Part shown: positions 2,541 to 23,160 of the stretch, piece by piece
Position numbering within the stretch: position 1 is the stretch's first letter
How the letters are laid out: every line of letters starts with the position of its first letter
NCBI GenBank assembly: GCA_021778315.1
Contig: JAJYCQ010000003.1
Span: forward strand, 18,275-82,274
Origin: Acidobacteriota bacterium
Lineage (GTDB): Bacteria > Acidobacteriota > Terriglobia > Terriglobales > Acidobacteriaceae
Length of the DNA stretch: 64,000 bases
Direction of reading: 5' to 3'
Made by a program: the position numbers and the translations under genes
The notes under the pieces: model-generated
Database searches by the model: none
Told to the model about the DNA's origin: nothing
What the model saw: the letters and a program-made list of their open reading frames with translations, nothing else

Positions 2541-3152
2541 CTAACCCAACCTCTCTGCCACATAAGGCTGCAGCAGCGCCTGCACCTGGCTATCAATCAA
2601 TGAGTCACTAAAATATTGCGTCTGCAGCGTGTCCATCTTGCTCGACTTCACATTGAGCCCCGGAGTCGCCTGAGCATTCCGAACAATCTGCGCACACGCA
2701 ACCTGCACAGCAGTCGGCACTGTCGTCAGACCGCCCGTATACGTCACCTCGGCCTCGGTATAGCGCATCCCCATCACGTTCCATGGGAAGCGAAATTCAC
2801 CCGTGGGCAAGCTCACATACAGGGTTGTCGGATCCACATCTACCCACTGTCCCGGCAAAGCGAATGCAACCGCAAAGCCGGTCTGATATGCAAAGTCCCC
2901 ATAGAAGTCATCTCCATATCCAGGTCGCGAGTACTGCGCTCGCACTGCATCCACGCTGATCAGCGGTCCATAGCTCAGCCGCACCGACTGCGCTCTCAGC
3001 GGAATTCGCATTCGCTCGGTATAGCTCGCCGACATCAGCGATGGTCGGCGGCAATAAGCCTCGATCATTGCGGAAGCCGTCGTCACCCACGCATCGGCCG
3101 TGTCCGCCGTCAGTCCAAACGCCACATAATCTGCTGGCAATAAATATCCCAT
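2541..3152 (-). CDS. Phage head-tail connector (gp6-like adaptor)
   Basis: A 203-residue protein with the pattern of HK97 gp6/SPP1 gp15-type adaptors: an N-terminal helical part in which a residue pair around MIEAYCRRPSL begins the DNA-packaging connector fold, a central beta part, and a C-terminal helix ending LLQPYVAERLG. It is the first gene after the major capsid protein, the standard place for the adaptor that docks on the portal. A purine-rich GAGAAGAG site precedes the ATG. A hairpin at 3195-3217 separates it from the capsid gene. Family membership is likely but not certain. Confidence 0.6.
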   Translation of the reverse strand: MGYLLPADYVAFGLTADTADAWVTTASAMIEAYCRRPSLMSASYTERMRIPLRAQSVRLSYGPLISVDAVRAQYSRPGYGDDFYGDFAYQTGFAVAFALPGQWVDVDPTTLYVSLPTGEFRFPWNVMGMRYTEAEVTYTGGLTTVPTAVQVACAQIVRNAQATPGLNVKSSKMDTLQTQYFSDSLIDSQVQALLQPYVAERLG

Positions 3153-3245: not shown

Positions 3246-4217
3246 CTAGCGATCGACCAGCACCTGATAATGCGCATAGCTCGCACCCTTGACCACAACG
3301 GCACCAAACTTCACCGCTGCATACTGGCTAGCCAGCGAACCCTGCAGGCCAAGCTGGAACACCCTCGGATTCGGCTCGCCCAACCAGTGATACTCGATCA
3401 GGTCCTCAGTGACGATGTACGCCGGTAGCACAGCAGTACCCGATCCCGGTACACCCGTATACGGCAGTGTCCACTCAGGAATCAGGGGAATATCACCAGC
3501 CTGTGTGCTCAGTGTCTTCACCGTCAGGCCGCCCTCGATGGTCTTCGTGTTGAGGACTACATTGAACTCCGCCTTCATTTCGCGATCGATCAAGTCAAGC
3601 AGCACTGGATTCGCATAGATCGCAGTCGGCCGAACACCGAAGCTGCTGTTCGCCAGCATCTGTGCAATCGTCGACTTTAGGCCGTCCACGATGCTTTGTG
3701 CCGCTCCGATTGTCGTTGTGTTACCACCTGCCGCGATCTGTCCAACAGCGCCGAAGTACTGCGCAGTAGTCGGTGAGCTCAGACTGGTGTCCGTACCGTT
3801 CCACAGAGCGATATCATGCGTCCGCAGAATGCCATCCACAGTATCGGTCAGATCCTTCGCCTGCAGATACGAAAACTGGCTCTGCTGCTTGCCCAGTTCA
3901 AGATCGAACAGGTTGTAGTTGATCTGCGCCACCAGCGCCTTCAGGGGAACGCTGTGCTCGACGCGTGTGGGCTGCACAATCGATGGAACGATATTGCGCG
4001 GATCCACAAACGCTGCCGTCGCGGCCGCTGCCGGAATTGCCGTCTCCTCGAAGAACCGAGAAGGATGACCCGTTGCAGGAACCTGCTTGATGCGCTGTCC
4101 GAACACGCCACGGCGACGCACCAGGTCGAGAATCTCTGTCTGATAAATCGGTACTTCAATTGCACCAGGTCCGATGTAGTCCGCCGTTGCGCTGATCTCC
4201 GTAAACTTTGCGTTCAT
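3246..4217 (-). CDS. Phage major capsid protein
   Basis: This 323-residue protein occupies the capsid position, right after the scaffold-like gene and before the connectors. The start at 4217 (MNAKFTEISA) is preferred because GAGGAG lies seven bases upstream; a longer frame adds ten residues without a better site. The sequence resembles capsid proteins of the HK97 fold: N-terminal arm, a region around VPLKALVAQINYN, a long helix-rich P domain with AQSIVDGLKSTIAQML, and a C-terminal beta segment (LVTEDLIEYHWLGEPN-like). Lack of a long cleaved delta domain agrees with a separate scaffold gene upstream. The subfamily cannot be named by eye. Confidence 0.75.
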   Translation of the reverse strand: MNAKFTEISATADYIGPGAIEVPIYQTEILDLVRRRGVFGQRIKQVPATGHPSRFFEETAIPAAAATAAFVDPRNIVPSIVQPTRVEHSVPLKALVAQINYNLFDLELGKQQSQFSYLQAKDLTDTVDGILRTHDIALWNGTDTSLSSPTTAQYFGAVGQIAAGGNTTTIGAAQSIVDGLKSTIAQMLANSSFGVRPTAIYANPVLLDLIDREMKAEFNVVLNTKTIEGGLTVKTLSTQAGDIPLIPEWTLPYTGVPGSGTAVLPAYIVTEDLIEYHWLGEPNPRVFQLGLQGSLASQYAAVKFGAVVVKGASYAHYQVLVDR

Positions 4218-4327
4218 TCTGTTTCTCCTCGTATCTCTGTTAAGCAAACGGCGCAGCTCGGACCGTAGTCCTGCCGCGCCATGTTATTTCTGACTCACGA
4301 TCATCTCGACCGAAGTATCCCGACGAA

Positions 4328-4759
4328 CTAACCCAGCAAACCTGCGCGTCTCAGCTCGGACTTCACCGCAATCCGCTGCTCAATGCCCAGACTCGACAGC
4401 GCACCATCTAGTGCCGATGCCTCCATCGAGGAGCCGCTTGCACCCAAATCCAGCGTCACGCCCTGCTTTGCCAGCATAGATGCCATACCCACCGGCAACG
4501 TCTTGCGGCCCACCACCTGAGGAGCAGCCGATGCGGTCAGCTCACTGATCCTCGCCTCTGCCTCTGCAAGTCGCCGCTCCAGCTCTGCCTCACGAGCCGT
4601 CTCCACCGTAGCCACAATCCGGCCAACATGCTCCTCAGCCTCCGCAGCCAACGCAACCTGTCGCTCCACCAGCCGCGAAGCCGCCTGCTCCAGTGCTTCC
4701 GCCACAGCTTCAAGACGCTCTGTCGCTTCCATCAAATCCACTACATTCCGATCTTCCAT
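4328..4759 (-). CDS. Putative capsid scaffolding protein
   Basis: A 143-residue, highly charged protein. Residues about 10-75 are almost entirely heptad-like Ala/Glu/Leu/Arg sequence (LERRLAEAEARISELTA), a clear coiled coil. The C-terminal half carries a conserved-looking LPVGMASMLAKQGV and a helical tail ending ELRRAGLLG. It sits between the protease and capsid genes, where scaffolds are encoded. GGAGGA precedes the ATG. Function is inferred from coiled coil plus position. Confidence 0.6.
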   Translation of the reverse strand: MEDRNVVDLMEATERLEAVAEALEQAASRLVERQVALAAEAEEHVGRIVATVETAREAELERRLAEAEARISELTASAAPQVVGRKTLPVGMASMLAKQGVTLDLGASGSSMEASALDGALSSLGIEQRIAVKSELRRAGLLG

Positions 4760-4788: not shown

Positions 4789-5385
4789 CTAAACGCCCTG
4801 CTTCCCCACAGCCACCCGTGTCGGCCGATGGTCGGTCCTTCGACACACACGAAACGATGTGCCGCGATACGCCGCCTTCTCACGCAGCAGAATCGCCGCG
4901 CCCGTAAACGTCGCCCGCGTCAACCGCCACACCACATCGCGCATATCCGCGACATGCGCATCTGCCAACTCGTAGCTCATCCCCATTGCGCTGGCGGCTC
5001 CGGCTGTAACTCCGCCAACCTTCTCTTCCATCTCTGGAAAATCCCGCGCAAACAGAAAGCCACTCACCAGCAGCTTGCTTCCGTCCAGGTGAGCCGACGT
5101 GATAATGCCGCACTTCTGCCGCGCGTCATGTCCATCCCACCCAGCCTTGTAGTCCACCGCCATACCCAGCAAACTCGGCAGTGCCGTCTCCGCTGCCTCC
5201 TTCGTGAGCATCACCCGATGGCCGCGAGCTCCGCTCGGTGCCTTATCGCTGGCCACATCGACCAACGTCAAGCAGCCCTCAAACGGCAATCGATTCGGAT
5301 GTCCCGCAACCTCCGGAAAATCCACCGCCATCGCCCGCAGCTCGCGTCCACTACAACGTGGCCGCACCACTCGACGCAACTGCAT
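4789..5385 (-). CDS. Putative prohead maturation protease
   Basis: A 198-residue protein between portal and scaffold, the canonical place of the capsid protease. The ATG at 5385 (MQLRRVV) has GGAGAG four bases upstream and is preferred to a TTG 14 codons earlier. Likely catalytic elements of the herpes/HK97-type serine protease fold are visible: a His in WDGHDARQKCG, then an Ala/Gly-rich segment with Ser (AASAMGMSYEL). In this family the protease removes scaffold after assembly. The Ser/His assignment is by pattern, not alignment. Confidence 0.6.
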   Translation of the reverse strand: MQLRRVVRPRCSGRELRAMAVDFPEVAGHPNRLPFEGCLTLVDVASDKAPSGARGHRVMLTKEAAETALPSLLGMAVDYKAGWDGHDARQKCGIITSAHLDGSKLLVSGFLFARDFPEMEEKVGGVTAGAASAMGMSYELADAHVADMRDVVWRLTRATFTGAAILLREKAAYRGTSFRVCRRTDHRPTRVAVGKQGV

Positions 5386-5444
5386 TGCTCTCTCCACACG
5401 TCCTCCTCTTCGCTTTCCTTCAGTCAAGCCTCAGCGTGCATTCA

Positions 5445-6716
5445 TCACACGCCTTGCGGCTCAACCAACGGACTCGCTAACTCTGCCGGTGCCAGGCCTC
5501 GCAGCGCCCGCACCTCGGCCACCGACAGAACTCCTGCAGCCAGCAGCTTCGTCTGGATCTCCATCTCGACCGTCTCATCCCGGCTCTCGAGATCGCTCCA
5601 TACAAACCGCAGATCGCCCCAACCCAGGCGTTTCACAATCACATCCCGCGTCAGGTGGTCAGCAATTAACTTGGCCAGTGGAACAATCGCATTCTGGAAG
5701 GCCTCGTCCGCCAGCTCGCCAGCAGTAGAGCGGTTTACACTCTGTGATACGCCCAGCATCATCGCCGGCAGATCAAAGGCATTCGCAATCATCGTCAGCA
5801 GAAACTGCTGCCACTCCAGCCGCAGATCCGCATCCGTACCAGCCGCAAACTTCAGCACCTCGGGCTTCTGCTCCGAGCTCAGCACAGGTACCCGTCCCGA
5901 CCCCTCCACCTCATCCTGCCACCAGCGAATCAGTCGTTCATGCTGCTCCGGAGTCCGCTCATTCAGCCACAGCGCATACTGCACCACGCTGTTCGAAGCC
6001 AGCCTTGCAGCATACCGGTGAGCCTGCAAAAAGTGCGAGATCGATTCAAACGCAACCTCCACCTTCCCCAATCCAAACGGAGTATGACTGCGAGGGTTCA
6101 ACCGCACATACATTAGCTCGTCATCGCGCAGCGGCAGCAGCGCCTCCTTGCCAAGTTTGCCTGTCACCTGTGCATACCGCGGATCACTCGGATTGCCCTT
6201 CCAGTTCGCGTTCACCTGGATCGACGCACCATCCACCGGATAGAGCCGCACCGGCAACTCACTATCGCCCGTATCGATCTCCGCCGCGCCAAAGCCTCCC
6301 ACCAGCGTGTCCTCGATCACCTGCTCGATCATCGTCCGAAAGCTGTCGCTCTCATTCGGCATCTCGAACGCCCGCGTAAGCGCCTCCGCTCTTTTGCCGC
6401 GATCGCCCGTCAGGTCCTCACCCGCACTCTGCCGCACCTCAATCCGCCAATCCATGCAAGCGATCCTGTCCTTGATACAGTTGATCGCCCGCCGCGCTGT
6501 AGGCGTCTCCGCAAACCGTCGCAGATTCGCCGCCGTTGGCTTGGGCAGCGCATTCTGTATGCCTGTCGTCCGAAACGGCGCGAAGATGGAGTTCATTCCC
6601 AGCGGTGTCACCGTTGTCTTCCGCTCGCCAACGTTCACCACCGAAGGATCCACTCCACTCGCTTCCACTCCAGCAGCCCGCTTCCATATCTCTTTCACTG
6701 ACGTTCCCAAACCCAT
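5445..6716 (-). CDS. Phage portal protein
   Basis: A 423-residue protein, the usual size of HK97-type portals, which form the dodecameric ring through which DNA is packaged. The start MGLGTSVKEIW at 6716 follows a strong GAGGAGGAGG site and replaces a longer frame that runs through a terminator-like hairpin. Typical portal features are seen: NCIKDRIACMDWRIEV in the N-terminal wing, a stem region (HRYAARLASNSV), the LSSEQKPEVLKF segment, and FDLPAMMLGVSQSVN with the following stem helices. It lies upstream of the protease and capsid genes. Between it and the terminase sits an unexpected kinase/DUF3037 pair. Confidence 0.85.
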   Translation of the reverse strand: MGLGTSVKEIWKRAAGVEASGVDPSVVNVGERKTTVTPLGMNSIFAPFRTTGIQNALPKPTAANLRRFAETPTARRAINCIKDRIACMDWRIEVRQSAGEDLTGDRGKRAEALTRAFEMPNESDSFRTMIEQVIEDTLVGGFGAAEIDTGDSELPVRLYPVDGASIQVNANWKGNPSDPRYAQVTGKLGKEALLPLRDDELMYVRLNPRSHTPFGLGKVEVAFESISHFLQAHRYAARLASNSVVQYALWLNERTPEQHERLIRWWQDEVEGSGRVPVLSSEQKPEVLKFAAGTDADLRLEWQQFLLTMIANAFDLPAMMLGVSQSVNRSTAGELADEAFQNAIVPLAKLIADHLTRDVIVKRLGWGDLRFVWSDLESRDETVEMEIQTKLLAAGVLSVAEVRALRGLAPAELASPLVEPQGV

Positions 6717-6737
6717 TCCAACCTCCTCCTCAAATAC

Positions 6738-6763
6738 AAAAGGCGTAGCCATTTGGCCACGCC
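6738..6763 (-). terminator. Terminator-like hairpin in portal leader
   Basis: On the minus strand a 9-base-pair stem (GGCGTGGCC/GGCTACGCC, one G-T pair) with a 4-base loop is followed by TTTTGTATTT and, at once, by the portal ribosome site. It falls after the DUF3037 gene. As an intrinsic terminator it would separate the kinase pair from portal transcription unless read through. Confidence 0.65.
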
Positions 6764-6796
6764 CTCTCAACTCCGTCATTCCTGTTCCCTACAGCT

Positions 6797-7618
6797 CTAA
6801 ACTCTCAGCTCCAGCCGTGCCGTCTCCGCCACGCGTCCCAGATCAGTAACCGTCAACACCCGAATCGCCTCCTGCTCCATAATGCTCACGCCAAACCCAT
6901 ACTGCTCCTGGTCCGCAATGGCACTAATCGTCTCCACCACGGCCGTCAACTCCAAGTCCACTCCCTCGCTGCGCATCACACCCCTGCGAAGAGCCTCTAC
7001 CGAGTACGCAATCCCCTTCGCCGCCTCCACATCATTCTCTAGCGACACCGCATGAAACATCCGCACCTTGCCATTGCGATACCCGCAGTCAATCTTCAGC
7101 GGATCACCCACCTGCGTATACTGCGCCGCGGCAATCTTCTTTCGCATCAGCTTCCAAACACCAGCGCGCTCAAACGTATCGCGCATGTTCGTCACAATCG
7201 CTCCGCGCCCACTCGCCTTCCGCCGCGTCGACGGCAGCTTCAGCGGTTCCACATACATCCGCAGCAGCTGCTCCATCTCCGCCGGCAGGCTCTCCGCCAG
7301 CGTCCCTCGCATCTCCGTCAACTGCACGCTGTTCGACAGCGAATCCTCCAGCGTCTCCAGCATCGGCTTCGCATTCACCCGCAGCTCAACCCCTGCCTGC
7401 AGCCGCAGCGCAATCTCTGCCTCCAGCAACTCCAGCAGCTCCACATCGGCGTCCGGATCCATGCACTTCACCCGGCTCCAGTCGCGAGTAAACTTCACCG
7501 TCGCGGAATCCTCCCGCCCGGCCTCGCGCAGCACCACGCCAATATTCGCAAACTCTCCCTTCACCACATCCGGCACATACCGGATGAGAGAAAATTCGCA
7601 CTGCAGTCGCTCACGCAC
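6797..7618 (-). CDS. DUF3037 domain protein, partner of HipA-like kinase
   Basis: A 273-residue protein whose N-terminus (FSLIRYVPDVVKGEFANIG) is the hallmark opening of DUF3037, a family of unknown function commonly encoded beside HipA-like kinases. The GTG at 7618 is preferred because GGAGGG lies five bases before it; a TTG four codons upstream has no site. No signal peptide, membrane segment or nucleic-acid motif is obvious. It starts about 28 bases after the kinase stop, so the two are surely co-transcribed. Both stand inside a phage late operon between terminase and portal, which is not a normal structural position; they are probably accessory (moron) genes. A toxin-antitoxin, kinase-regulator or defence role is inference. 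Confidence 0.75.
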   Translation of the reverse strand: MRERLQCEFSLIRYVPDVVKGEFANIGVVLREAGREDSATVKFTRDWSRVKCMDPDADVELLELLEAEIALRLQAGVELRVNAKPMLETLEDSLSNSVQLTEMRGTLAESLPAEMEQLLRMYVEPLKLPSTRRKASGRGAIVTNMRDTFERAGVWKLMRKKIAAAQYTQVGDPLKIDCGYRNGKVRMFHAVSLENDVEAAKGIAYSVEALRRGVMRSEGVDLELTAVVETISAIADQEQYGFGVSIMEQEAIRVLTVTDLGRVAETARLELRV

Positions 7619-7646
7619 CCAACCCTCCAAAGTCTTTACGCCAACT

Positions 7647-8513
7647 CTACATTACAAAGTCTTCATGATTTGCCCTAACCTCAAAGTTACCCGGTACCAC
7701 AATTCTCTTCACCGCTCCCCAGTTCGGGAATGGCTCCCGATTGGACACTCTAAACTGCTCGATCAACTCTCTTACCCGCGATCTTCGCTTCAACAGCATC
7801 TCCATCAGGCGCTCAATCACCGCAGTGTCGCCACCGTACCACTCCGGAGGAATCTCCTCCGCAATCTTCCACAACCCCTCCGCCGCGAACCCTTCCACCC
7901 GGTTCAGCCACGGCTCAAAGCTCTCCCATCCCCGTACCTTCGCATACACCTGGTTACGAGCAAACACTCCTCGCAGCGGAGCATCCGGAAACGTCCACTC
8001 CCCCGCGTTGAAGCAAAAACCCTGGTCAATAAACGTGGCCCGGTACTTCCTCTCTCGAGGCTTCCGTTCAAACACCGCCTGTCGTCCATTGCAGTTGCCC
8101 GTCCACTTGTCCAGCACCAGCATCCCTGCAAACTCCGCCAGATTTCTCACCTCATCCATCTGCGGCTCGGGCAGATAATCCACCACCTGCCCCGGCATCA
8201 GACCTCCCACAAACCTGCTCCCAAACTGCAACCCACTCGCACATCGTTCGCGAACACCACGCCCCAGATCGACCATCATCTCCGGGCTGTTCGCAATCAA
8301 CCAGTCACTCACCTCAACCACATCGCTCTTCGGCACCGACAACCCAACCGCCTCGGCCATCCGCGTCGCAATCAGCTCATTCGCTAGCACCCTCAGATGC
8401 TGCGCATTATTCTTGAACTTCACCACCCACAGGTTGCCATCCGCACCCAGCATCAACTGGCTCTGCGCTCCACCCCGCATCCGACGAATCGCCTGCACCG
8501 CCGTCACTGCCAA
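7647..8513 (-). CDS. HipA-like kinase
   Basis: A 288-residue protein with the kinase motifs of the HipA_2-type family: the lysine-bearing strand WVVKFKNN (residues 29-36), a conserved Glu in ANELIATRMAE (E46), the catalytic-loop equivalent LDKWTGNCNG (D135, N140, N142), and a metal-binding Asp in FIDQGF (D163). All key residues are present, so catalytic activity is plausible. It begins at a TTG with GGAGGG eight bases upstream, 18 bases after the terminase stop, and is followed by the DUF3037 gene. HipA kinases of toxin-antitoxin loci phosphorylate GltX, but this shorter branch has no established substrate. No HipB-like antitoxin is seen nearby. Confidence 0.75.
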   Translation of the reverse strand: MAVTAVQAIRRMRGGAQSQLMLGADGNLWVVKFKNNAQHLRVLANELIATRMAEAVGLSVPKSDVVEVSDWLIANSPEMMVDLGRGVRERCASGLQFGSRFVGGLMPGQVVDYLPEPQMDEVRNLAEFAGMLVLDKWTGNCNGRQAVFERKPRERKYRATFIDQGFCFNAGEWTFPDAPLRGVFARNQVYAKVRGWESFEPWLNRVEGFAAEGLWKIAEEIPPEWYGGDTAVIERLMEMLLKRRSRVRELIEQFRVSNREPFPNWGAVKRIVVPGNFEVRANHEDFVM

Positions 8514-8531: not shown

Positions 8532-10037
8532 TCACCTTATTCCATCTGCCCAACTTCCGTGCAACCTGGGCAGCATCTCTGCCCTCACCGCCTGCGCCAC
8601 GGCCATCGCCATCACCAGGTCATCGTGCGAGCCATTCGCCGCTCCCGTCTTCCCTCGTTCCCGTCCCACAAACGTCCTGCACTCGCCCAGCAGCCGCTTG
8701 CTCTGGAAGATCTCCGGCCGCTCCTCCAGCAGCGTTTCCAGCCTCGCCGTCATCTCCGGCTTCGAAGCCGCAGTCGTCAGCCACCCCGCCTCGCTCCCCT
8801 GCCGGTACACCTTGGTATAGAGTTCGCTCGCCTCGATATACGCCAGCACCGCGGCTCCATGATTATTCCGCTCCACCGCAATCATCGCGTTGCCATACTC
8901 CCTCGCCAGCTCCACCGCCGCCTTCGCCAGCTCCCACGGCTTCAATCTCTCCTGCAACTCCGCGCACTGCAGCCCCGTCAGCCGATCAATCACCTGCACC
9001 GCCGCAAAGTCACCCTCCTCGCCTCCGCCCGCCGAGTCCACCGCAACCAGGTAGCTCCTCCCCTCCTTCGGAGGAAGCCAAACCAGCAACGCTCCCCCAC
9101 GTCGAACCGACGCCACTGAACCCACCTCTAACATCTGCCGCTCAATCGCTTCCACATTGAAGAAGCAAGTACCCGTCGCCCGAAAACATGTCTCCGCATC
9201 TTCAGCAAACTCCTGCGACCGCAGCCCTCCGTAACTCCGCTCCAGCCCTCGCCGAAACCCGATCTGCTCTCCGCTCAATCCATACCGCTCCACCAGCGCC
9301 GACTCCACCTCCGTCATCGCAGCAGGCTCCACCCAAGCCCCCACATAAGCCGGCTCCAGCCACCACGGCAGAAAGTGCCGCACCATCGCATCCCCGTCTC
9401 CGCCTGCGTTCACCGCCGAGCACCACTCCTCATAGAACGCTCCATACGCTCCATTCGGCGTACTCTCCAGGACCAGTTCACCGCTCGGTGCCAGCGCCGC
9501 CCGTAGACCCGCCAGCGTCATCGCCGCATCTCCCGGCCACCGGCTCACCTCGCTGCAATGCAGATTCTGCAAGCTCATCCCGCGTCCTGCTCCTATATCG
9601 CAAGCACTCGCCACCCGGTACTCGCTATCCAGCTCCGGAAACACCATCTGTCCCGCATTCGCCCTGCTCCGCACCAGCGGCCCTCTGCGAAGATCCTCCG
9701 GCAGCTCTTCCCACATCCGCTGCACGATGCGGAAGATCCCCTCCGCCGCCTCCCGCGTATGCGCCACCTGCAGCGTCAGCGTTCCCGGCCTGGTGATCGT
9801 ACGAAGAAAAAACCTCCCCGCCACCCAGGTCGTCACGCCCATCTGCCGAGCCTTCAGCACAATGTTCTGCCGTCCCCGCCGCTCTTCAAATCTCCTCTGT
9901 GCCGCATTCGCGACAAGTGGCTTCAGGCGACCCTCCCGATCACGTACCCGAAGCCACGCCTCCGCTTCCCTTATCACCCTCTCAGGACCGCGCTCCATCG
10001 CCCGGCCCAGTACCTTCAGCGCGCTAGTCTCCTCCAC
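8532..10037 (-). CDS. Phage terminase large subunit
   Basis: A 501-residue two-domain packaging motor. The ATPase domain has a deviant Walker A, LKARQMGVTT (residues 61-70), and a Walker B-like segment in LHCSEVSRWP, followed by the coupling-type LVLESTPNG. The C-terminal RNase H-like nuclease shows its acidic residues in YLVAVDSAGG, a second in AVERNNHG and the last pair in SHDDLVMAMA. It cuts concatemeric DNA and translocates it through the portal. The start is a GTG with only a weak G-rich site. Upstream (rightward) lie the fibre-like genes; the likely small subunit is not adjacent. Confidence 0.9.
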   Translation of the reverse strand: MEETSALKVLGRAMERGPERVIREAEAWLRVRDREGRLKPLVANAAQRRFEERRGRQNIVLKARQMGVTTWVAGRFFLRTITRPGTLTLQVAHTREAAEGIFRIVQRMWEELPEDLRRGPLVRSRANAGQMVFPELDSEYRVASACDIGAGRGMSLQNLHCSEVSRWPGDAAMTLAGLRAALAPSGELVLESTPNGAYGAFYEEWCSAVNAGGDGDAMVRHFLPWWLEPAYVGAWVEPAAMTEVESALVERYGLSGEQIGFRRGLERSYGGLRSQEFAEDAETCFRATGTCFFNVEAIERQMLEVGSVASVRRGGALLVWLPPKEGRSYLVAVDSAGGGEEGDFAAVQVIDRLTGLQCAELQERLKPWELAKAAVELAREYGNAMIAVERNNHGAAVLAYIEASELYTKVYRQGSEAGWLTTAASKPEMTARLETLLEERPEIFQSKRLLGECRTFVGRERGKTGAANGSHDDLVMAMAVAQAVRAEMLPRLHGSWADGIR

Positions 10038-10120: not shown

Positions 10121-13100
10121 TTACTGCGCCCTTACCTGCCCCACCGGAACAGGGTTTTCCAAGCTGTTCAGCATCCACTGGTACACCGGAGAGGGCCCAC
10201 CCGAACTCGCCGACGATGTTATGCCCGAGTAGATAATCGAGTACTGATTGCTGCACGTCGACGACGTGAATGTATCCGTCCACACGCCGCTCGGCTGCGT
10301 GACCGTATCCGTCCCGCACACCGTCGAAGGATAGGCTGTCAACGTAACGCCAGTCCCCGTCGGAGAGACCAGATTGAGTGTCGGAGCCGACGTACAGCCA
10401 TACCCATAGGTGCTGAACACCGATGCACTGCTATAGCCCCCCCAGGTCGTGTGAATCCCGTTAGGAATACCCCCCGACGCCGACATGTACCCCGCCACAT
10501 GGCAGTTCGCTCCTCCTCCTGTTGACGTGATTGCCGTTTCATTCGCGTACCCCGTTCCGCCGCTATAGCCAATCTGCACCCCTCCCTGGAACACCGGAGT
10601 AAGAATCATCATGGTCCCCAGCGAATCCCACGCCGTCCGACTATCGTTACCGTAGGTCACCGACGCCAGATACAGCGGGTCATTACTGGTTCGAGTCACC
10701 AGAACTCCCGGCCCGTTTGGAGCCGGACTCCCTTCCATCAGATAGGTCGGCATACCCCCCAGGTGCGCGATCACGTACTGCCCTTGAGTTGGGTAATACA
10801 TCGTATTGTCACCCGTCACACTCGTAACACACGGCGTCGTCGCTGGGAGCGTGGGCAGAGTAGGGCCTGCGCCGCCGCACGTTGGCCCGCCCTCCAGATA
10901 CATCGACCCTCCATTCGTCACGTTTTGCGCCCACAGTTGTGCTCCCGTCAGCGGCGATACGCTGTCCGCCGCACTGGTCATAAAGTCATACATCCCATAC
11001 AGCAGGGTTGGAATCAGCAGCGTGATCGGCGTCGTCGGATGCGCCGCGAAGATCTTCCGGTACATGCTCGCCGTCGTCGGATACCCGGTATAGCTTTGCG
11101 GTGTCGATGCGTTATACGCCGTGATATTCGCCGGAACACAGAACGCCTGGGCTCCCGGGGCGATCGTATTTGAGTTCGAGGCCATCGACAGAGGAATATC
11201 CGCCAGCCCCGCCTGATCCAGCATCTGCCGAAAAATCGCCGCTCCCACACCCGAGTCCGACTCAATCGCGATCCCCAGCAAATTGATGTATCCCAACTGA
11301 TGCAGTCGGATCGCCACCGAGATCGTCGTCGTCGAATCATAGTCGGCGCACACAATCTCGTTCACAATCACCGGAATATGCTGCGGAACCGCTGGAAAGA
11401 TCCCCTGGTACATCTTCGTCAGATAGAACAGAGTCTGAATCTGCGAGGAAGTCAGCACTCCGGGAAACAGTGCAAACTCATCCACATTCGTCGCTGTCTG
11501 CGTACTGTCGGACTGGTCAATTCCGTTGTACGCTCCCGAGCTCACTCCTCCCGGTACCATCAGCGGCAGCGTAGTCGAGTTCATCGACGCCCCTCCCAGA
11601 TGCACCGTAATTGTTGCCCCCGTCCCCGTCGGCGACGTCAGCACGATCGTCGGAAGCGACGTGCAACCGTAATTGTTCTGTCCCGCTGCTGAGTTGATCG
11701 TCGTCGGCACCCCGTTCACTGCCGTCATCGATCCCGCAACATGGCAATTCGGCCCTCCCCCCGTTACCGTAAAGGCTGTCGAGTTCGCGTAGCCCGTGCC
11801 TCCCGATACACTCTCCCACGTCGCTCCAAAGCCCGCACTGTAGGACTGCGACGATACCGCCGTCGGAGCATAGCTGCTGTTCAGTCCATTGACGTACAGT
11901 CCCAGCGAAGCTACGCACCCCGTGCACTGGCCACCCGCCCCCGAGGCCCCTACTCCATTGTTCGTTACAACAATGTCATAGTTATAGCCATTCGCTAAAT
12001 CGTAGTTCGTGCAGATCGTGTCGCCAGCATTCTGGAACGGAGCCCCCGGCCCGTTCGCTCCATTGCGAGCAAAGCAAAGCTGATCAATTCCAGGGCCATT
12101 GCCCGGCCCCGTCAGCGTCAGCTTCCACCAGTTATTCAATGCGCTGGAACTGTCCCCTTTGCTCGCCAGCACCAGCGTCCCTGTCCGGTTCCAGTTCAAG
12201 CGATCGATATGCAACAACATCGTCCACGGATTCATCCAGTCAATCGCACCCAGCGTGTCATTGGGTGCGATGGCGAATCCGTTATAAGGAAAAGCCGCAG
12301 AGTAGTTCGCCGGATTTGTGTTGTCGAAACCCGGCTGCTGGGTCGCGACCGCGCCCGAAGTAACCACCGCTGCCTTCAACGCCACAACCAGCGCACCTCC
12401 GCCTGTACTGCCACTCGCCAGCGTGAAATTGAACCCATACGACCCAGGTGACTCCGCAAAGAAATAGCCGCCCGTCGTGTTGACCCCATCCCCTCCAACA
12501 AACGTGAAGGTCGGAGCCCCCGCGTACAAATGAACATAAGCTCCAGAGTTCCCAAAGCCTACAAGCATGTCATTATTCTGCGTTGTCGTGACCGAACCGC
12601 TGCTGATGGCCGACCCTGTCGTCGTAAACGCTCCCGAACCAACCCCATCCACAGGAGAGGACGCAGCCACTCCGCTGAACGCCTGCACAATCAGCAGCGG
12701 GTAGGATACCGCCGCACTCAGCGTCACCGTAATCGTATGCGACCCCGCCCCCACATTGGCGCACACATACGCCGCACCAAGGTTGGCTCCGCTGGCCCAG
12801 GAGCTACCCGGTACAGCCGTCGGCGTACATCCCGCCGAGTCGGCCACATTCGAGATCGTTCCCGCCCCCGTAGCAATTCCAATTACCAGCGCATTTCCTG
12901 CCGTCGCCGTCAGCGCACACGATACCGTTGCTGCCGACGACGGCTGCGACGTACACTGAGCCACATACGTCGGCCTTGCCGGTGCAACTCCCCCAAAGCT
13001 CACCCCCGACACGCTGTCCGCAAAGTTCACCGTGGCATCGTTATAGTTCAACAGCAGCGACGGATTCGCCATCTGCTCCTCCGCCGCATAGTTCGTCTGC

Positions 13101-13174
13101 GGATTCACATTCTGCCCAAACACCGCTGCACAGAAGAGGCACAGCACAATCAACACATCGATCACTTTCTTCAT
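10121..13174 (-). CDS. Exported fibre-like protein, LamG and nucleoside hydrolase-like parts
   Basis: This 1017-residue protein starts with a clear Sec signal peptide (residues 1-20, MKKVIDVLIVLCLFCAAVFG, then QNVNP). Residues about 60-270 are Ser/Thr/Gly-rich beta repeats. About 285-600 resemble a LamG/ConA-type lectin fold. From about 600 a segment starting IPVIVNEIV and containing ADYDS resembles nucleoside hydrolase-like proteins, with the metal motif altered. A module with GGTGYAN...TGGG.NCHVAG occurs twice (around 470 and 880). The start ATG overlaps the previous stop (TAATG), so the two giants are translationally coupled. It looks like a glycan-binding fibre, but a signal peptide is unexpected for a tail fibre. 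Domain names are by eye only. Confidence 0.6.
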   Translation of the reverse strand: MKKVIDVLIVLCLFCAAVFGQNVNPQTNYAAEEQMANPSLLLNYNDATVNFADSVSGVSFGGVAPARPTYVAQCTSQPSSAATVSCALTATAGNALVIGIATGAGTISNVADSAGCTPTAVPGSSWASGANLGAAYVCANVGAGSHTITVTLSAAVSYPLLIVQAFSGVAASSPVDGVGSGAFTTTGSAISSGSVTTTQNNDMLVGFGNSGAYVHLYAGAPTFTFVGGDGVNTTGGYFFAESPGSYGFNFTLASGSTGGGALVVALKAAVVTSGAVATQQPGFDNTNPANYSAAFPYNGFAIAPNDTLGAIDWMNPWTMLLHIDRLNWNRTGTLVLASKGDSSSALNNWWKLTLTGPGNGPGIDQLCFARNGANGPGAPFQNAGDTICTNYDLANGYNYDIVVTNNGVGASGAGGQCTGCVASLGLYVNGLNSSYAPTAVSSQSYSAGFGATWESVSGGTGYANSTAFTVTGGGPNCHVAGSMTAVNGVPTTINSAAGQNNYGCTSLPTIVLTSPTGTGATITVHLGGASMNSTTLPLMVPGGVSSGAYNGIDQSDSTQTATNVDEFALFPGVLTSSQIQTLFYLTKMYQGIFPAVPQHIPVIVNEIVCADYDSTTTISVAIRLHQLGYINLLGIAIESDSGVGAAIFRQMLDQAGLADIPLSMASNSNTIAPGAQAFCVPANITAYNASTPQSYTGYPTTASMYRKIFAAHPTTPITLLIPTLLYGMYDFMTSAADSVSPLTGAQLWAQNVTNGGSMYLEGGPTCGGAGPTLPTLPATTPCVTSVTGDNTMYYPTQGQYVIAHLGGMPTYLMEGSPAPNGPGVLVTRTSNDPLYLASVTYGNDSRTAWDSLGTMMILTPVFQGGVQIGYSGGTGYANETAITSTGGGANCHVAGYMSASGGIPNGIHTTWGGYSSASVFSTYGYGCTSAPTLNLVSPTGTGVTLTAYPSTVCGTDTVTQPSGVWTDTFTSSTCSNQYSIIYSGITSSASSGGPSPVYQWMLNSLENPVPVGQVRAQ

Positions 13175-16100
13175 TACTGGCTCCTTCCCGTCACCAGGGT
13201 CACTCCCAGCAGATTCGCATTACCAGCAGCCGTATCCGATGCCGCCCGATAGATCCGGTATGTAACCAGCGAGCCCGGTGTCGTCGTTCCAGCCGCACAC
13301 CCGTTCGTTCCCGGAGTCGCAACGCCCGGCAACACCGCCGTCGTCACTCCAGCTCCCGACGTCGAACTCACCGTCGCCGAAACCGCAACCGCTGTCCCAA
13401 ACGCCGGAGCCCCCATCACCGAGCCATCGTTCACGCACGCCGTCTGCACATACCAGGTCACCGCTCCCGTTGTAGCCTGCGAGTAGAACTTGATGTACAA
13501 GTTCGTGCCCGTCCAGTACGGAGGCGTCGCTACCGTTGCCTCTGCATATTGCGGAAGCGCCGGCGCCGCATTGAACGCTAGGTACCCCAGCGAGCTACTC
13601 GCCGGTAACACGCACCCTGCCTGTGGCTGATTGTTGTTGTACCGTGTCAGCCCCGAAGCAAAGCTGGCCCCGCCATCACACACCGCCGCCGCATAATACT
13701 TGATCTCCGCCGGTGGAGTGGAGCTCCCCGTCGCAATCGTGCACGTTCCGCCCAGCACACAGGTCTGCCCATTCACCGTCGTCGCACTGTTGGCCAGCGC
13801 CGCGTTGGGAATCGCACTCGCCGTCACCGCAACCGTAGGAGTCGTCGTCGCGTTGGTCACCGTAGGCGTCAGCCAGCTCGGCCACGTTCCTGTCGCAACG
13901 CTGCTAACAGTGCCTGTCCCGCCCCCGAACGCCGGGCAGTTTGTTCCATCCTGCAGGCACGGTAAGATGCCGCCAACCGTCGATCCCGCGGCAAACTTGC
14001 TCGCTCCCGTCGTCGCCGTGATCGATGGCAAACTTAGATTCCCGGTAAGCGAGAACCCACCGTTCTGCGGGTTGAATCCAAAGGAACCTCCCAACGCGTC
14101 CGTAAAGATAAAGTAAGGCTTCGCATTCGTTGAGACCGGCTCCCCTCCCTGCACAAACAGAATCGATCCGTTATTCGCTGGTCGATACCCAAAGTAAAAA
14201 TCATTCGCGTAAGACCCCTGTACATAAAACATCTCTTGCGCGACACCATTCGTCGTCTTGTTCAATGCCGCATACGCCCTGGTCAACTGCGCTGGCCCAT
14301 TGTCAAACACCATCATCCCCTGCGATGCCCTGCTTCCATCGATCGGTGACGTTTGTCCGATATACAAATTGAATCCGGAGTTCTGAAACTCCGAGGTCGG
14401 CGCCCCCGCTACCGTATCCCCAGCCGCGAACGGAACCGTATTCGTCGCCAACTGCACATTGCCGGCAACTCCATTATTTGTCCCCGTAATGAATGCCGAC
14501 GGATAAAACGTAATGCTCAGCGGAGGAGTGGAGACCGTCCCCAATGCAGTCGCCGTTTCATCCGCGCCCGTCTCTGCCCAGGTAATATTTGCCGCGGCCC
14601 CGGCACTGCCATCCTCGCTATTGGTCGCCACGGTGTACGTCCCATTCAAATCCGATGGACTCGCTCCCGTCACAACGATCGTTGACCCCACAGGAAAGTA
14701 AGTCACCTTCGGCCCCATCCCACTCAACTTCACCACGTTCCCTGCCCGCACCATCGAGTTGCCATAAGCCAGAACGCCGCTAAACGACAGCGGAGTCGAC
14801 GGAAGAATGTTTCCCGTCCCCGCACCCACCCCGTTACAACTTCCACTCAGGCAGTTGCTGATAAATACCTGCGTCGGAGACGTAGCACCCACCACCGCAT
14901 ACGCAATCGGCCACGTCGTCGCCGCGTACGTTGCCACAATCGATTGCCCGCCCGGGCCACCCTGCATCACCAGCGCCGCGTCCCAGCTCGAATTCCACGC
15001 ATAGCGAGTGTTGAACGTAATCGACTGCACTCCACCCGAAGCCGCACCAACAGCCACCACCGCCGCTTCCTCTTCAAACGGGCCCGATAGAAAAATATCC
15101 TGCCCCGCTACAAAATTCCCAGGACTCGCCGGAGACGTCCCCAGCGTCACATTGCACGTAGTCGCCGTATAGTTCTGCCACTGCCCACTTCCGTTGTTCG
15201 TACAAGAGCTCGGAATAAGATTGCCCCACGCCGTCGAAGGAGTGACCGTCCCCGAACCCAGCGTGTACGCCATCCCATTGAGCACCTCAGCCTCTCCTGC
15301 CAGCGTCGCCGTGCCCACGCTCTTCGACATGTCCAGCAGAATCCCTCCATCAGCAAACTGAGCATTCTGCACCGTCGTACAAAACCCATGACAGCTCATC
15401 GAATTCGTCGTCAACAGATTTGATCCCGTCACTCCTCCCGTCGCGATGACTCCCGTGAAGTAGCCAATCTGATTCGTCTGCGCGACCGTATGCGTCACCG
15501 CTTCATCCGACGATGCCACCGATCCTCCGAACGACGTCAGGTACGTGTAGTACGCCGCCGTATCCCCCTGCGCAAAATGGCTAAAGTCTCCCGCGTGCAG
15601 CTGCGATATCCCTCGCGTTGCCGACTCTTCTGTATCCGATTCGAGCGCACAGGTAGACCACCCATTCGCAGACGTTCCATTGTTCCCAAGATCAAACCCC
15701 GGCTGGAAGCAGTTCAACGAATTCGTAAACTGTGCATACCCCGCAACATTAGGATTCGCCGCCGTCGTCGCCGAAGTAATCGTCATCTGCGACGCGGTCC
15801 CCGCACCAGCGAAGGTCGTGTTCGCATACGTCCCCGCAATGCCAAAAGTCGTCCCTGTCGGCTGTGCCACCACCTGCGTCGCTCCTGGCAGCAGGCTCAC
15901 CTTCTGTCCCATCCCCGCTGCCGTCGCAGCTACGTTCACGTCCACATAATGTTTGTCCGCGGCCTGGTTCGGGCTCACCGGATCCCCCGGCAGCACCAGC
16001 GGCCCCGTCATCGTTCCGCCCGCCGTCGGCACATAAATATTCGAGCTCAGCGAAGTCCCCGTCTGCACTGCCGCAATCGCGTTGTCCACATACTGCTTGG

Positions 16101-16533
16101 ATACCGTCTGCATCGCCACACTGATCGGCAGCACCTGGCTCTTGATCGACGCCAGCGTCACCGCAGCGCCCCCCGTCACCGTCGCAGGAACCACCCAGTA
16201 CTCCCGGCTCGTCGTTCCATCACTCAGGTGATACACCGCCGTGTAGTACGTCCCCATCGGCGTCGACCCCGCATTCGGTGCCAGCGCCACCGTCAGCAAC
16301 CCTCCCGCACCGATCGTCGTCGACAACGTTCCCGACGGCACCGACTGCCCGGCCGCCGTCGTAAACGCGTTCCAGCTCACCAGCACCGTTCCGCTTGCCG
16401 GACTTCCATTCGCGCTGTAGATCGTGTCCTGGACAGTCGTCGTCGCCACCTGTGCCTCTGCCGAGTTCACCCATCCGGCCATCATCGCCACCAGTACCGC
16501 CAGCAGCATCAACCCTCGCCTTATTCCGCTCAT
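13174..16533 (-). CDS. Exported tail-fibre-like protein
   Basis: A 1119-residue protein beginning MSGIRRGLMLLAVLVAMMAG with signal-peptide cleavage likely after AEAQ near residue 29. The ATG at 16533 has GGAGG four bases upstream and is preferred over a frame 16 codons longer. Residues about 115-200 contain the tail-fibre motif 'N-Q-A-A-D-K-H-Y-V-D' and a related KQYVDNAIAA. Near residue 900 is the fibre-type GTVSSVATGTW and TTVNGQTCVLGGTC. Most of the rest is Thr/Ser/Gly beta repeat. It is co-translated with the 1017-residue protein. Fibre modules are seen; export is inferred. It could be a receptor-binding fibre, a decoy, or a host adhesin built from phage parts. Confidence 0.65.
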   Translation of the reverse strand: MSGIRRGLMLLAVLVAMMAGWVNSAEAQVATTTVQDTIYSANGSPASGTVLVSWNAFTTAAGQSVPSGTLSTTIGAGGLLTVALAPNAGSTPMGTYYTAVYHLSDGTTSREYWVVPATVTGGAAVTLASIKSQVLPISVAMQTVSKQYVDNAIAAVQTGTSLSSNIYVPTAGGTMTGPLVLPGDPVSPNQAADKHYVDVNVAATAAGMGQKVSLLPGATQVVAQPTGTTFGIAGTYANTTFAGAGTASQMTITSATTAANPNVAGYAQFTNSLNCFQPGFDLGNNGTSANGWSTCALESDTEESATRGISQLHAGDFSHFAQGDTAAYYTYLTSFGGSVASSDEAVTHTVAQTNQIGYFTGVIATGGVTGSNLLTTNSMSCHGFCTTVQNAQFADGGILLDMSKSVGTATLAGEAEVLNGMAYTLGSGTVTPSTAWGNLIPSSCTNNGSGQWQNYTATTCNVTLGTSPASPGNFVAGQDIFLSGPFEEEAAVVAVGAASGGVQSITFNTRYAWNSSWDAALVMQGGPGGQSIVATYAATTWPIAYAVVGATSPTQVFISNCLSGSCNGVGAGTGNILPSTPLSFSGVLAYGNSMVRAGNVVKLSGMGPKVTYFPVGSTIVVTGASPSDLNGTYTVATNSEDGSAGAAANITWAETGADETATALGTVSTPPLSITFYPSAFITGTNNGVAGNVQLATNTVPFAAGDTVAGAPTSEFQNSGFNLYIGQTSPIDGSRASQGMMVFDNGPAQLTRAYAALNKTTNGVAQEMFYVQGSYANDFYFGYRPANNGSILFVQGGEPVSTNAKPYFIFTDALGGSFGFNPQNGGFSLTGNLSLPSITATTGASKFAAGSTVGGILPCLQDGTNCPAFGGGTGTVSSVATGTWPSWLTPTVTNATTTPTVAVTASAIPNAALANSATTVNGQTCVLGGTCTIATGSSTPPAEIKYYAAAVCDGGASFASGLTRYNNNQPQAGCVLPASSSLGYLAFNAAPALPQYAEATVATPPYWTGTNLYIKFYSQATTGAVTWYVQTACVNDGSVMGAPAFGTAVAVSATVSSTSGAGVTTAVLPGVATPGTNGCAAGTTTPGSLVTYRIYRAASDTAAGNANLLGVTLVTGRSQ

Positions 16534-16602
16534 TTTTCCTCCACGCTCAACCGCTGTCTCGCAACCCAACACCACGCACACCTCTTCCCCGCGACGCGCA
16601 GC

Positions 16603-16857
16603 CTAACCGGCTACGGCTATGCTCGCACTAGCAGGAGCGTTGATCGCAATCGGTGCGGCCGCAACAACACCCATCGCCGCCGCCGGGGCCACACTCGCCA
16701 CAGGAGTAATCGCATTCAGAAACAGCCCATTCACCATCTGCGCCAGCTGAATAAAATCTGTGCTCCCAAAGTGCCCCACCGACACACCGCTGTTATGCGC
16801 AATCGCCAGGCCAATATTCAAATATCCAAGAATCATCTGCAGTTCATTCGTCTTCAT
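16603..16857 (-). CDS. Small hydrophobic hypothetical protein
   Basis: An 84-residue protein starting MKTNELQMIL at 16857 behind GGAGGAG seven bases upstream; longer frames lack a site. The first half is mixed helix (LGYLNIGLAIAHNSGVSVG), the last 30 residues are Ala/Val/Pro-rich and strongly hydrophobic. It is the first gene of the leftward run that continues into the fibre-like genes (69 bases to the next start). No family is recognised; a holin-like or structural-appendix role is possible but unsupported. Confidence 0.6.
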   Translation of the reverse strand: MKTNELQMILGYLNIGLAIAHNSGVSVGHFGSTDFIQLAQMVNGLFLNAITPVASVAPAAAMGVVAAAPIAINAPASASIAVAG

Positions 16858-17071
16858 ACTGTTCTCCTCCGCCTTAGCGGCGCTTCTATACCCTTCAAAC
16901 TCGATCCCGTCCTTCGCCCGCTCCAGCGGCTCCTCCACTCCGACGCCCCCGCGTCGACTCGCTTCCACCGCCTCCACTCGCTCAATGCCCAACTCTTCGC
17001 CGCCCCCACGTTGCAACCATCTCCGTCCAACCGCTACCATCACCTTTAGTAACGAGCTCCGAAAGGCACCC

Positions 17072-17302
17072 ATGGAATCCAATAGCAACTCCGCTCCTCG
17101 TCGTTCTGAAGACATCGCTCTCGACCTCCTCAAGTTCGTCTCCACCCACGCCAACCTCGGCAGCAAAGCTCCCTCCTCCACCGGCTTCGGACTTCCCTCC
17201 GCGCCCAAGTCTGAAGACCAGGTCGCCCAGATCTTCGAGCTCTACGCCCGCTGCCGCGAGGCCGTCGAAGCCCCACTCCCCGACTCCTCGGCAAAGAAGT
17301 AG
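17072..17302 (+). CDS. Small conserved-looking hypothetical protein
   Basis: A 76-residue soluble protein (MESNSNSAPRRSEDIALD...) starting at the ATG preceded by GAAAGG. It is two bases upstream of the oxidoreductase GTG and must be co-transcribed with it. Sequence is helix-rich (VAQIFELYARCREAVEAP) with a Ser/Pro-rich middle. Third-position C bias matches the host genes, unlike the leftward phage genes. Function is unknown. Confidence 0.65.
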   Translation: MESNSNSAPRRSEDIALDLLKFVSTHANLGSKAPSSTGFGLPSAPKSEDQVAQIFELYARCREAVEAPLPDSSAKK

Positions 17303-17304
17303 CC

Positions 17305-18417
17305 GTGCCACCTCTTCGCGTAGCTGTCATCGGCGCCGGCGCCTTCGGGCGCAACCACCTCCGCGTCTACCGCGAGCTCGAACTAGCTCACCCCGAGCTC
17401 GTTCTCCTCACCGCTCTAGTCGAGCCCGACGCCGGTCGCCGCAACGCCTCCGCCGGCACCTACAACATCCCCACCTTCGCCACCCTCGCCGAGCTCCTCG
17501 ACGCCAAACTCCACCTCGACGCCGCTTCCATCTGCGTCCCCACCATCCACCACGCCGCCGTCGCCGAGCAACTCCTTCTCACCGGCCTCGACCTCCTCAT
17601 CGAGAAGCCCTTCGCCGCTACCCTCGCCGATGCCGACCGCATCCTCGAGCTCTCCACCACCCTCAACCGCATCGTCGCCATCGGTCATCTCGAGCGCTTC
17701 AACCCCGCCGTCACCGCCACCCTCGCCGAGCTCAACCACCCCATGTTCTTCGAGGCCCACCGCCTCAGCATCTTCACTCCGCGCTCCCTCGACGTCGACG
17801 TCGTCCTCGACCTCATGATCCACGACCTCGACATCGTCCTCTCCCTCACCAACTCCCCCGTCCGCGAAGTCCGCGCCGTCGGCCTTCCCGTCCTCTCCCG
17901 CAAGACCGACATCGCCAACGTCCGCGTCGAGTTCGAATCCGGCTGCGTCGCCAACTTCACCGCCAGCCGAGTCTCCACCGAGCAGGTCCGCAAGCTCCGT
18001 CTCTTCCAGCCCCACCAATATCTCTCGCTCGACTTCGCCCGCCAGGAACTCCTGACCATCAGCGTCGATCCAGCCGTCATCGCAGCCGCAATGGCAGCGA
18101 CGGCCGCTGCAGGTTCGCCCCCGAGCCCTGCACCCACCCCGACCGCCGCCACGCATCCCACCGCACCCCACTCCGCTGCCCCCAACGAGCCGCCCCCGCT
18201 CGCTGCAGCCGTACACCCCACCGCCGGCCTCTCCCTCACCAAGGCCGACATCCCCAAAGGCGAACCCCTTCGCCTCGAGCTTGAAAACTTTCTCCACGCC
18301 GTGCAAACCCGCACGCAGCCCCGCGTCCCCGCCGAAGCAGGTCGCGCCGCCCTATCGCTCGCTCTCGCCATCAACGACCAGATCGCCGCCCACGCCCACC
18401 GCACCGGCCTGCTCTAA
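17305..18417 (+). CDS. Gfo/Idh/MocA-family oxidoreductase
   Basis: A 370-residue NAD(P)-dependent oxidoreductase starting at GTG two bases after the upstream stop. The Rossmann motif VAVIGAGAFGRNH (residues 6-18) and the family's EKPFA (catalytic-lysine motif, about 99-103) are intact, followed by the GHLERFNPA segment typical of the sugar-nucleotide branch. Residues about 270-305 are an Ala/Pro/Thr-rich low-complexity insertion that interrupts the C-terminal domain. Members similar to this act on UDP-GlcNAc-type sugars in lipid A or surface polysaccharide synthesis; that substrate is inference. It stands between two phage-like blocks. Confidence 0.8.
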   Translation: MPPLRVAVIGAGAFGRNHLRVYRELELAHPELVLLTALVEPDAGRRNASAGTYNIPTFATLAELLDAKLHLDAASICVPTIHHAAVAEQLLLTGLDLLIEKPFAATLADADRILELSTTLNRIVAIGHLERFNPAVTATLAELNHPMFFEAHRLSIFTPRSLDVDVVLDLMIHDLDIVLSLTNSPVREVRAVGLPVLSRKTDIANVRVEFESGCVANFTASRVSTEQVRKLRLFQPHQYLSLDFARQELLTISVDPAVIAAAMAATAAAGSPPSPAPTPTAATHPTAPHSAAPNEPPPLAAAVHPTAGLSLTKADIPKGEPLRLELENFLHAVQTRTQPRVPAEAGRAALSLALAINDQIAAHAHRTGLL

Positions 18418-22143: not shown

Positions 22144-23160
22144 CTACCGTTTTGCCTCCGCGCGGTACGTCGCCACATTCGCGTTATGCTCCTCCAATGT
22201 CGCCGCAAACCGCGTCGCCCCCGCCGAATTCGCCACAAAATACAAATAATCCGTCCGCGCCGGCCGGAGCACCGCCTTCAGCGCTGCCACTCCCGGGTTA
22301 CAGATCGGCCCCGGCGGCAGTCCCGCATGCACATACGTGTTGTACGCCGAGTCCGACTTCAGCTCGCTCTGGTGAATCACCCCCGTCCACGTCCCCCGCA
22401 GCAGCGACGCATAAATCACCGCCGGATCCGTCTGCAGCGGCATCCCCGCCGCCAGTCGGTTCTCAAACACGCTCGCTACCACCGGCCGCTCCGCGTCAAT
22501 ATGAACCTCCTTCTCCACCAGCGACGCCATCGTCACCGTCCGCTCCACCTCCCCGCGATGCATCCCCAGCCGCGTCACCTCCTGCCCAAACCGGTGCACC
22601 ATCGCCGTCAGCATCTGCGCTGCCGTCTCATGACGCCCAAACTTGTACGTATCCGGAAACAGGTACCCCTCCAGCGACCTCGCTCCTCCCGTCGGAACCC
22701 ATGCCTCAATCAGCTCCGTATGCTGCTCCTCCGCCAGCAGAAAATCCTCCCTCGAATCCAGTCCCGCCGCCGCCACCGCGCCCGCAATATCAAAGATGTT
22801 GAACCCCTCCGGAACCACCACCGTCACGGTATATACATCTCCCCTGCGCAGCCGGTCGTACACCTCCGCCATCGTCGCCGCGTGGTCGAACCGGTACTCC
22901 CCGGCCTTCAGCGTCCCCGCGCCCGGCCCTCGCACGCTCTTCCACACCGTCAAAGCGTCAAACGCCACCGCACTGCGAACGATCCCCGCCTTCTGCAACG
23001 CCCTCGCAATCCCCGCCGTCCCCGTCCCCGGAGCAATCTCCACAAACGTCTCCGCCCCCGGCCCAAACGGCACCAGCACAAAGAACCCCACCGCCACCGC
23101 CACCAAAACCGCCACCACCACCAAAGTCTTCAGCACCCTCACAAGCACCACCTCACCCAA
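22144..23160 (-). CDS. mltG: Endolytic murein transglycosylase
   Basis: A 338-residue inner-membrane enzyme that cuts nascent glycan strands and limits peptidoglycan chain length. One N-terminal membrane helix (about residues 7-30, TLVVVAVLVAVAVGFFVLV), a LysM-like middle (VPEGFNIFDIAGAVAAAGL), then the YceG catalytic domain with the conserved Glu in TMASLVEKEVHID and the family signatures YLFPDTYKF and LQTDPAVIYA, ending SDSAYNTYVHAGLPPGPICNPG. Length fits the family. It is divergent from ruvX across 70 bases, a common pairing (mltG next to yqgF). Confidence 0.9.
   Translation of the reverse strand: MGEVVLVRVLKTLVVVAVLVAVAVGFFVLVPFGPGAETFVEIAPGTGTAGIARALQKAGIVRSAVAFDALTVWKSVRGPGAGTLKAGEYRFDHAATMAEVYDRLRRGDVYTVTVVVPEGFNIFDIAGAVAAAGLDSREDFLLAEEQHTELIEAWVPTGGARSLEGYLFPDTYKFGRHETAAQMLTAMVHRFGQEVTRLGMHRGEVERTVTMASLVEKEVHIDAERPVVASVFENRLAAGMPLQTDPAVIYASLLRGTWTGVIHQSELKSDSAYNTYVHAGLPPGPICNPGVAALKAVLRPARTDYLYFVANSAGATRFAATLEEHNANVATYRAEAKR

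Follow-up and report, generated by a model that had tools for sequence, protein, structure and literature searches.

A HipA-like kinase/DUF3037 pair in a probably domesticated phage head cluster of Acidobacteriaceae, apparently kept after loss of the head genes

Why should a HipA-like kinase gene and a DUF3037 gene sit between the terminase and portal genes of a phage-type head cluster? The question is raised by a 64,000-nucleotide stretch of an Acidobacteriota genome (hereafter the window; contig JAJYCQ010000003.1), where such a pair occupies positions 7647..8513 (kinase) and 6797..7630 (DUF3037 protein) of the minus strand. The original prediction for this locus had described a "moron" cassette inserted in a phage cluster, which might exclude rival phages or act as an addiction module. 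Here, we report that the pair is probably a fixed part of a head cluster domesticated in the host chromosome, and that in at least three lineages, to judge from genome sequences, the head genes have apparently disappeared, leaving only the pair at the old site.

Results

The kinase and its DUF3037 partner

On the minus strand, the genes for the terminase large subunit (8532..10037; PHROG, 3.4e-25), the kinase, the DUF3037 protein and an HK97-like portal protein (called at 5445..6779; Phage_portal, 171.8 bits for a cut-off of 39.1) follow one another with intergenic gaps of 16-18 bases. The kinase matches Pfam HipA_2 (43.2 bits, cut-off 27) and PADLOC PDC-M66A (3.4e-8), and its adjacent, co-oriented partner matches Pfam DUF3037 (85.2 bits, cut-off 22.6) and PADLOC PDC-M66B (1.3e-14). 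Coordinates, Pfam, PHROG and PADLOC thus all bear out the predicted arrangement, and the PDC-M66A/B pairing agrees with the view of DUF3037 as the habitual partner of such kinases. NCBIfam gave no name for either protein. DUF3037 was the only Pfam family above cut-off in the partner, which we regard as a putative antitoxin or regulator of the kinase, and DUF1829 was not found in it. Likewise, no HipB-type helix-turn-helix antitoxin lies next to the kinase, the neighbours of which are the terminase and DUF3037 genes.

The kinase (288 residues) has a minimal HipA/HipT-like fold: residues 15-259 of its model align to residues 151-433 of HipA 4pu4, and the HipA N-terminal subdomain is absent. Residues K32, D135, N140 and D163 are invariant across 28 aligned kinases; from HipA motifs we take them to be the ATP lysine, the catalytic Asp and Asn, and the DFG-like Asp, respectively. 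The claim that all catalytic residues are present holds on this assignment.

A fixed slot between terminase and portal

In the first viral contigs found to carry the kinase (57-68% identity), the order was terminase-kinase-DUF3037-portal-protease-capsid in all 12. A kinase profile search in genomes of 84,980 species then gave 455 relatives, of which the best 80 were examined. The terminase-pair-portal arrangement is present in 62 of these 80 genome loci, and 8 more are consistent with it but cut by contig ends or partly resolved; in 7 the pair lies beside gfo without an intervening terminase gene (two of these contigs end soon after), and 3 are unclear. Among the viral contigs, 21 of 22 have the same arrangement, the remaining one ending within the kinase gene. 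Since the slot is the same in genome loci and in viral contigs, the pair did not enter it recently, and its coding in the window is not decayed.

For counts within the host family, the putative major capsid gene (3246..4247, minus strand; named by position and conservation, with neither a Pfam nor a PHROG match) served as marker. Of the 127 capsid-positive genomes, 14 were set aside because of contig ends or because their matches lay beyond those listed; in 110 of the remaining 113, the pair lies next to head genes. The cultured Edaphobacter modestus and Granulicella rosea carry the full cluster. Two gene orders were observed, A in 93 genomes and B in 15, with the terminase-pair-portal block intact in both (loci L103-L138). 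The rearrangement between the two orders is accompanied by a changed left flank.

The head cluster as a probable inherited chromosomal element

The capsid protein has exactly one match (threshold 1e-20, 69-89% identity) in each of 127 of the 200 family genomes searched, a pattern with a probability of about 1e-30 under a Poisson model of the same mean. The other 73 genomes gave none, draft-genome gaps and true loss being counted together in this number. A TGA falls within the matched range in seven of the 127; open frames of 322-327 residues point to a position ahead of the true start. As a control, the general portal family was matched at least twice in 8 of the 60 family genomes examined, with a single gene split by contig ends apparently accounting for two of these (G017 and G071); other prophages are hence visible to the method. 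In a phylum-wide draw, the capsid gene was present in 29 of 297 genomes, all of them already in the family draw.

The surroundings are those of a chromosome. The window holds dnaA (59888-61300), at a distance of about 43 kb from the left end of the cluster, so that it corresponds to a part of the host chromosome, possibly close to the origin of replication, rather than to the phage cluster first proposed. Its left chromosomal neighbours include gfo, encoding a Gfo/Idh/MocA oxidoreductase (17305..18417, plus strand), and mltG (YceG; 22144..23160, minus strand). We compared 60-kb regions of 12 genomes with the window, naming greA, ruvX, mltG, gfo, purE, purK, lipB and hemB by Pfam and sucB, lpd and mutS2 by manual reading. 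In 9 of the 12 genomes, purE and/or purK lies directly right of the cluster, mostly followed by sucB and lipB. Directly left of it, the six order-A genomes have gfo (five) or mltG (one), both of which the window has on that side.

In addition, distances between cluster proteins track those of rpoB (r 0.77-0.86, 20-27 genomes), and the guanine-cytosine (GC) content of the cluster is within 0.03 of its flanks in 13 of 13 regions. The scan of cluster proteins, several of which belong to no family, gave only a chance integrase match (0.092), and no integrase or replication gene was recognised. The variable copy number and variable site of mobile prophages were not seen: all 127 positives have one copy, and the neighbours are mostly shared, with exceptions. 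Given the single copy, the housekeeping-gene surroundings, the rpoB-like distances and the pair fixed beside the head genes, the cluster is probably a domesticated head cluster of which the pair is a fixed part. It is possibly gene-transfer-agent-like. The single copy and host-like phylogeny, together with the constant slot, replace the idea of a moron inserted in a phage.

The pair remains where head genes are gone

A kinase match (threshold 1e-15; places are those among the 150 listed) without a capsid match was obtained in 33 family genomes. In eight of them (G006, G108, G194, G161, G180, G131, G100 and G174), the pair is found by itself next to gfo, in the old position. On its right, purE or sucB lies within about 250 bases in six; sucB is at 7.7 kb in G100, and no right neighbour was recognised in G174. 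In Terriglobus albidus, the pair is about 435 bases from gfo and about 222 from purE, distances being taken between match edges. At the seven other pair-only loci measured, 307-726 bases separate the pair from gfo, and the stretch examined showed no head gene. A relative of the left-edge open reading frame (ORF) that adjoins gfo in the window (16603..17208, minus strand) was detected at six of the eight loci. The other genomes include two contig-cut clusters, four in which a more distant pair lies close to sucB or lipB, and G039, with a kinase near sucB. In three genomes (G113, G094 and G127), we observed 5-8 kinase matches each; the kinase also spreads beyond this site.

On an rpoB tree of 36 genomes and on a kinase tree of 37 rows, the pair-only loci must fall into at least three separate groups, and a single pair-only clade is rejected (approximately unbiased (AU) test, p 0.0014), the 37 rows having been chosen after viewing a larger kinase tree, so that the test is not blind. 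For that larger, quickly built tree, loci with less than 85% coverage or with a stop were excluded, leaving 144, of which 129 are distinct; parsimony requires four changes on it. These data indicate at least three lineages in which the head genes were lost and the pair alone was retained. Ratios of nonsynonymous to synonymous substitution (dN/dS) are 0.03-0.10 for the pair at pair-only loci (six comparisons) versus 0.03-0.19 for the pair in clusters (ten). The pair thus remains under purifying selection after head loss. As a separate observation, three loci from records titled Verrucomicrobia or Rhodanobacteraceae (L024, L025 and L062) have kinases nested among those of Acidobacteriaceae and are likely mis-binned metagenome contigs.

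The junction hairpin and other genes of the cluster

The terminator-like hairpin predicted before portal is indeed present. It spans 6738-6767, 3' of the DUF3037 gene, with a T-rich stretch to 6732 on the minus strand (element 6732..6767), and has a folding energy of -23.8 kcal/mol (z -4.7), equalled by none of 200 shuffles. Of 90 loci scanned at the DUF3037-portal junction, 85 have a hairpin with a T-run, versus 61 of 450 single-letter shuffles. The same simple scan of our own gave 13 of 92 for terminase-kinase, 5 of 104 for kinase-DUF3037, 3 of 54 for portal-protease and 31 of 69 for capsid-adaptor, the DUF3037-portal windows being longer (mean 370 bases) than the others (170-255). In the window, the hairpin lies inside the opening codons of the portal ORF as called; by manual reading, translation of portal probably begins at the ATG at 6716, which follows a GGAGG.

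Downstream of portal on the same strand, a conserved gene at 4789..5427 is named putative prohead protease by its position, with no Pfam or PHROG match, and a small conserved gene at 4328..4759 is scaffold-like by position only. Beyond the capsid gene lie a head-tail adaptor (2541..3152; PHROG 442, 7.5e-16) and three further conserved genes (2140-2538, 1597-2103 and 644-1600). On the other side, 5' of terminase, two long fibre-like proteins are encoded on the minus strand (10121..16581) and differ between genomes. They seem to form a fast-changing fibre or surface module, as relatives in most genomes align over a few hundred residues only. Both begin in a signal-peptide-like manner by manual reading.

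Two candidate switches for cluster expression were noted. Both are at the left edge of the cluster. One is a protein with weak likeness to sigma-70 region 4, encoded at 20805-21584 and with relatives in L115-L117 and other loci; the match (0.0015) was seen in a relative, and the window copy has no Pfam match. The other, present in many genomes, is a divergent HTH_26 regulator.

Discussion

The pair shares its HipA-like kinase fold with HipBA and HipBST. It differs from them in that its antitoxin is not a HipB-type helix-turn-helix protein and that the HipA N-terminal subdomain is absent. HipAD was reportedly first described by Brenes and Laub in 2025, in a study that by its title concerns E. 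coli prophages. Gene transfer agents such as RcGTA are single-copy, vertically inherited head clusters amid housekeeping genes, which the present cluster resembles in these features; particle production and DNA transfer by it are putative, and the kinase pair in the cluster is a difference. In the literature searched, with wider searches judged by title, we found no description of an acidobacterial capsid cluster as domesticated.

The prediction that the pair has no established function does not stand, since such pairs have been tested as defence or toxin-antitoxin modules (PMC12548924, PMC13092281). The HipA/DUF3037 pair of Retron-Sda1, without the retron, protected E. coli from phage Bas51; deletion of HipA abolished defence and deletion of DUF3037 was toxic (PMC12548924). 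This module is of the same two-gene type, with a retron adjoining it, whereas the slot here is fixed between terminase and portal. DS-6, renamed HipAD, also combines a HipA-family kinase with a DUF3037 protein and keeps the catalytic residues; a catalytic mutant lost defence, and AlphaFold3 predicts that the two proteins bind (PMC13092281). In contrast to DS-6, the present pair is single-copy and vertically inherited, either within a head cluster or on its own at the site. Gratiaviridae gut phages encode a HipA-family kinase in the head module, in the portal-capsid interval, for which an immunity role was proposed (PMC8008677). There, an ATPase and a glycosyltransferase lie alongside, no DUF3037 partner is named in the accessible text, and the setting is five phage genomes rather than a chromosomal lineage. 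Finally, cluster 153 of acidobacterial loci, described as prophages, includes, as matched by scaffold name and position, the same element in strain KBS 89 (scaffold00005 60000-90000, our locus L082 at 69317-90180), with mention of neither the kinase pair nor vertical inheritance in the part available (PMC5900883). Strain KBS 146 (G003, L127-L128) carries the cluster, although no prophage was detected there in that study.

Our preferred reading, to which we give a probability of about 0.6, is that a HipAD/PDC-M66-type pair is fixed in a domesticated head cluster, the kinase being a toxin held by DUF3037 and kept by the host for defence and/or addiction. Such a module would have been permanently incorporated into a phage head cluster, and the ancestor of part of the Acidobacteriaceae would then have domesticated this cluster in its chromosome. 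By analogy with the published homologues, which make the predicted exclusion or addiction role likely, the kinase would be a toxin that arrests growth and is kept in check by the DUF3037 protein. An infecting phage or a similar event may disturb this hold, and the freed kinase would phosphorylate a host target, so that growth is aborted. Deletions would have spared exactly these two genes because the pair defends the cell and/or because loss of DUF3037 alone does harm. More tentatively, and with less confidence than doubt, the cluster may be a family-wide gene-transfer-agent-like element with a welded kinase toxin-antitoxin that guards the cell and arrests or kills particle-making or phage-infected cells, its site being a permanent host immune locus that outlasts the particle genes.

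Several observations weigh against the preferred reading. Toxicity and defence of the pair in this lineage are putative, and the DUF1829 part of DS-6B is missing from the partner. Head genes occur without an adjacent pair in three genomes: other ORFs occupy the slot in G042, and terminase and pair are both missing 5' of portal in G130 and G021. Besides the 73 of 200 family genomes without a capsid match, 44 of 200 have no kinase match. Of the 33 genomes with a kinase but no capsid match, 18 or 19 have the kinase elsewhere, and in 14 of 18 no DUF3037 gene is recognisable by the query used. Only two pair-only groups are forced by a 28-genome rpoB tree without the relatives of the window, or by the 129-row kinase tree. 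G001, G002 and G003 (3 of 12) have other right neighbours and the order-B genomes share a different left flank; rearrangement has therefore occurred. In addition, some IMG/VR contigs carry the cluster; purK was found in none of six such records tested, with no positive control, and mobile relatives are possible.

Pure addiction, with a selfish toxin-antitoxin pair whose loss harms the cell and which brings no defence benefit, would account both for the pair standing alone in at least three lineages and for the toxicity of DUF3037 loss in the homologue (PMC12548924). We consider it unlikely, however: homologues gave phage defence (PMC12548924, PMC13092281), the pair failed to stop the loss of head genes, and the genomes without a kinase match indicate that the kinase can be lost. 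Somewhat less probable again is that the kinase serves the capsid cluster, being made together with terminase and phosphorylating head or packaging proteins or arresting the cell during particle making. The slot, the same in both gene orders and kept in 110 of the 113 resolvable genomes, and the hairpin after the pair speak for such a service, but three clusters persist without the pair, and the pair is under selection where no head gene was found beside it. As the head is gone at pair-only loci, control of particle making cannot explain retention there; regulation of this process by the kinase is possible where the putative particle cluster is present.

Earlier authors named such loci prophages (cluster 153, PMC5900883), related contigs are in IMG/VR and flanks differ in some genomes, all of which would fit ordinary temperate prophages sharing an insertion hot spot. 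That explanation is nevertheless improbable in view of the absence of any second copy in 127 positives, the mostly constant host neighbours, the distances that track rpoB, the GC content close to that of the flanks, and the integrase found only as a chance match among the cluster proteins scanned. We give the least credence to the reverse history, in which the pair came first to the gfo-purE site and head genes were assembled around it. Pair-only loci do exist at this site, but their lineages are nested in head-bearing ones in both trees, the left-edge ORF is retained at six of eight, and the same slot is found in 21 of 22 viral contigs.

Overall, the pair type was already known as a defence or toxin-antitoxin module, and its setting in an inherited head cluster is the surprise. 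The pair-only cultured strains make the question of defence versus addiction testable. The findings also point to a capsid cluster that is vertically inherited and widespread among members of a soil-bacterial family. The repeated natural deletion of its capsid genes suggests that, to the host, a phage-borne kinase/DUF3037 module has greater value than those genes around it.
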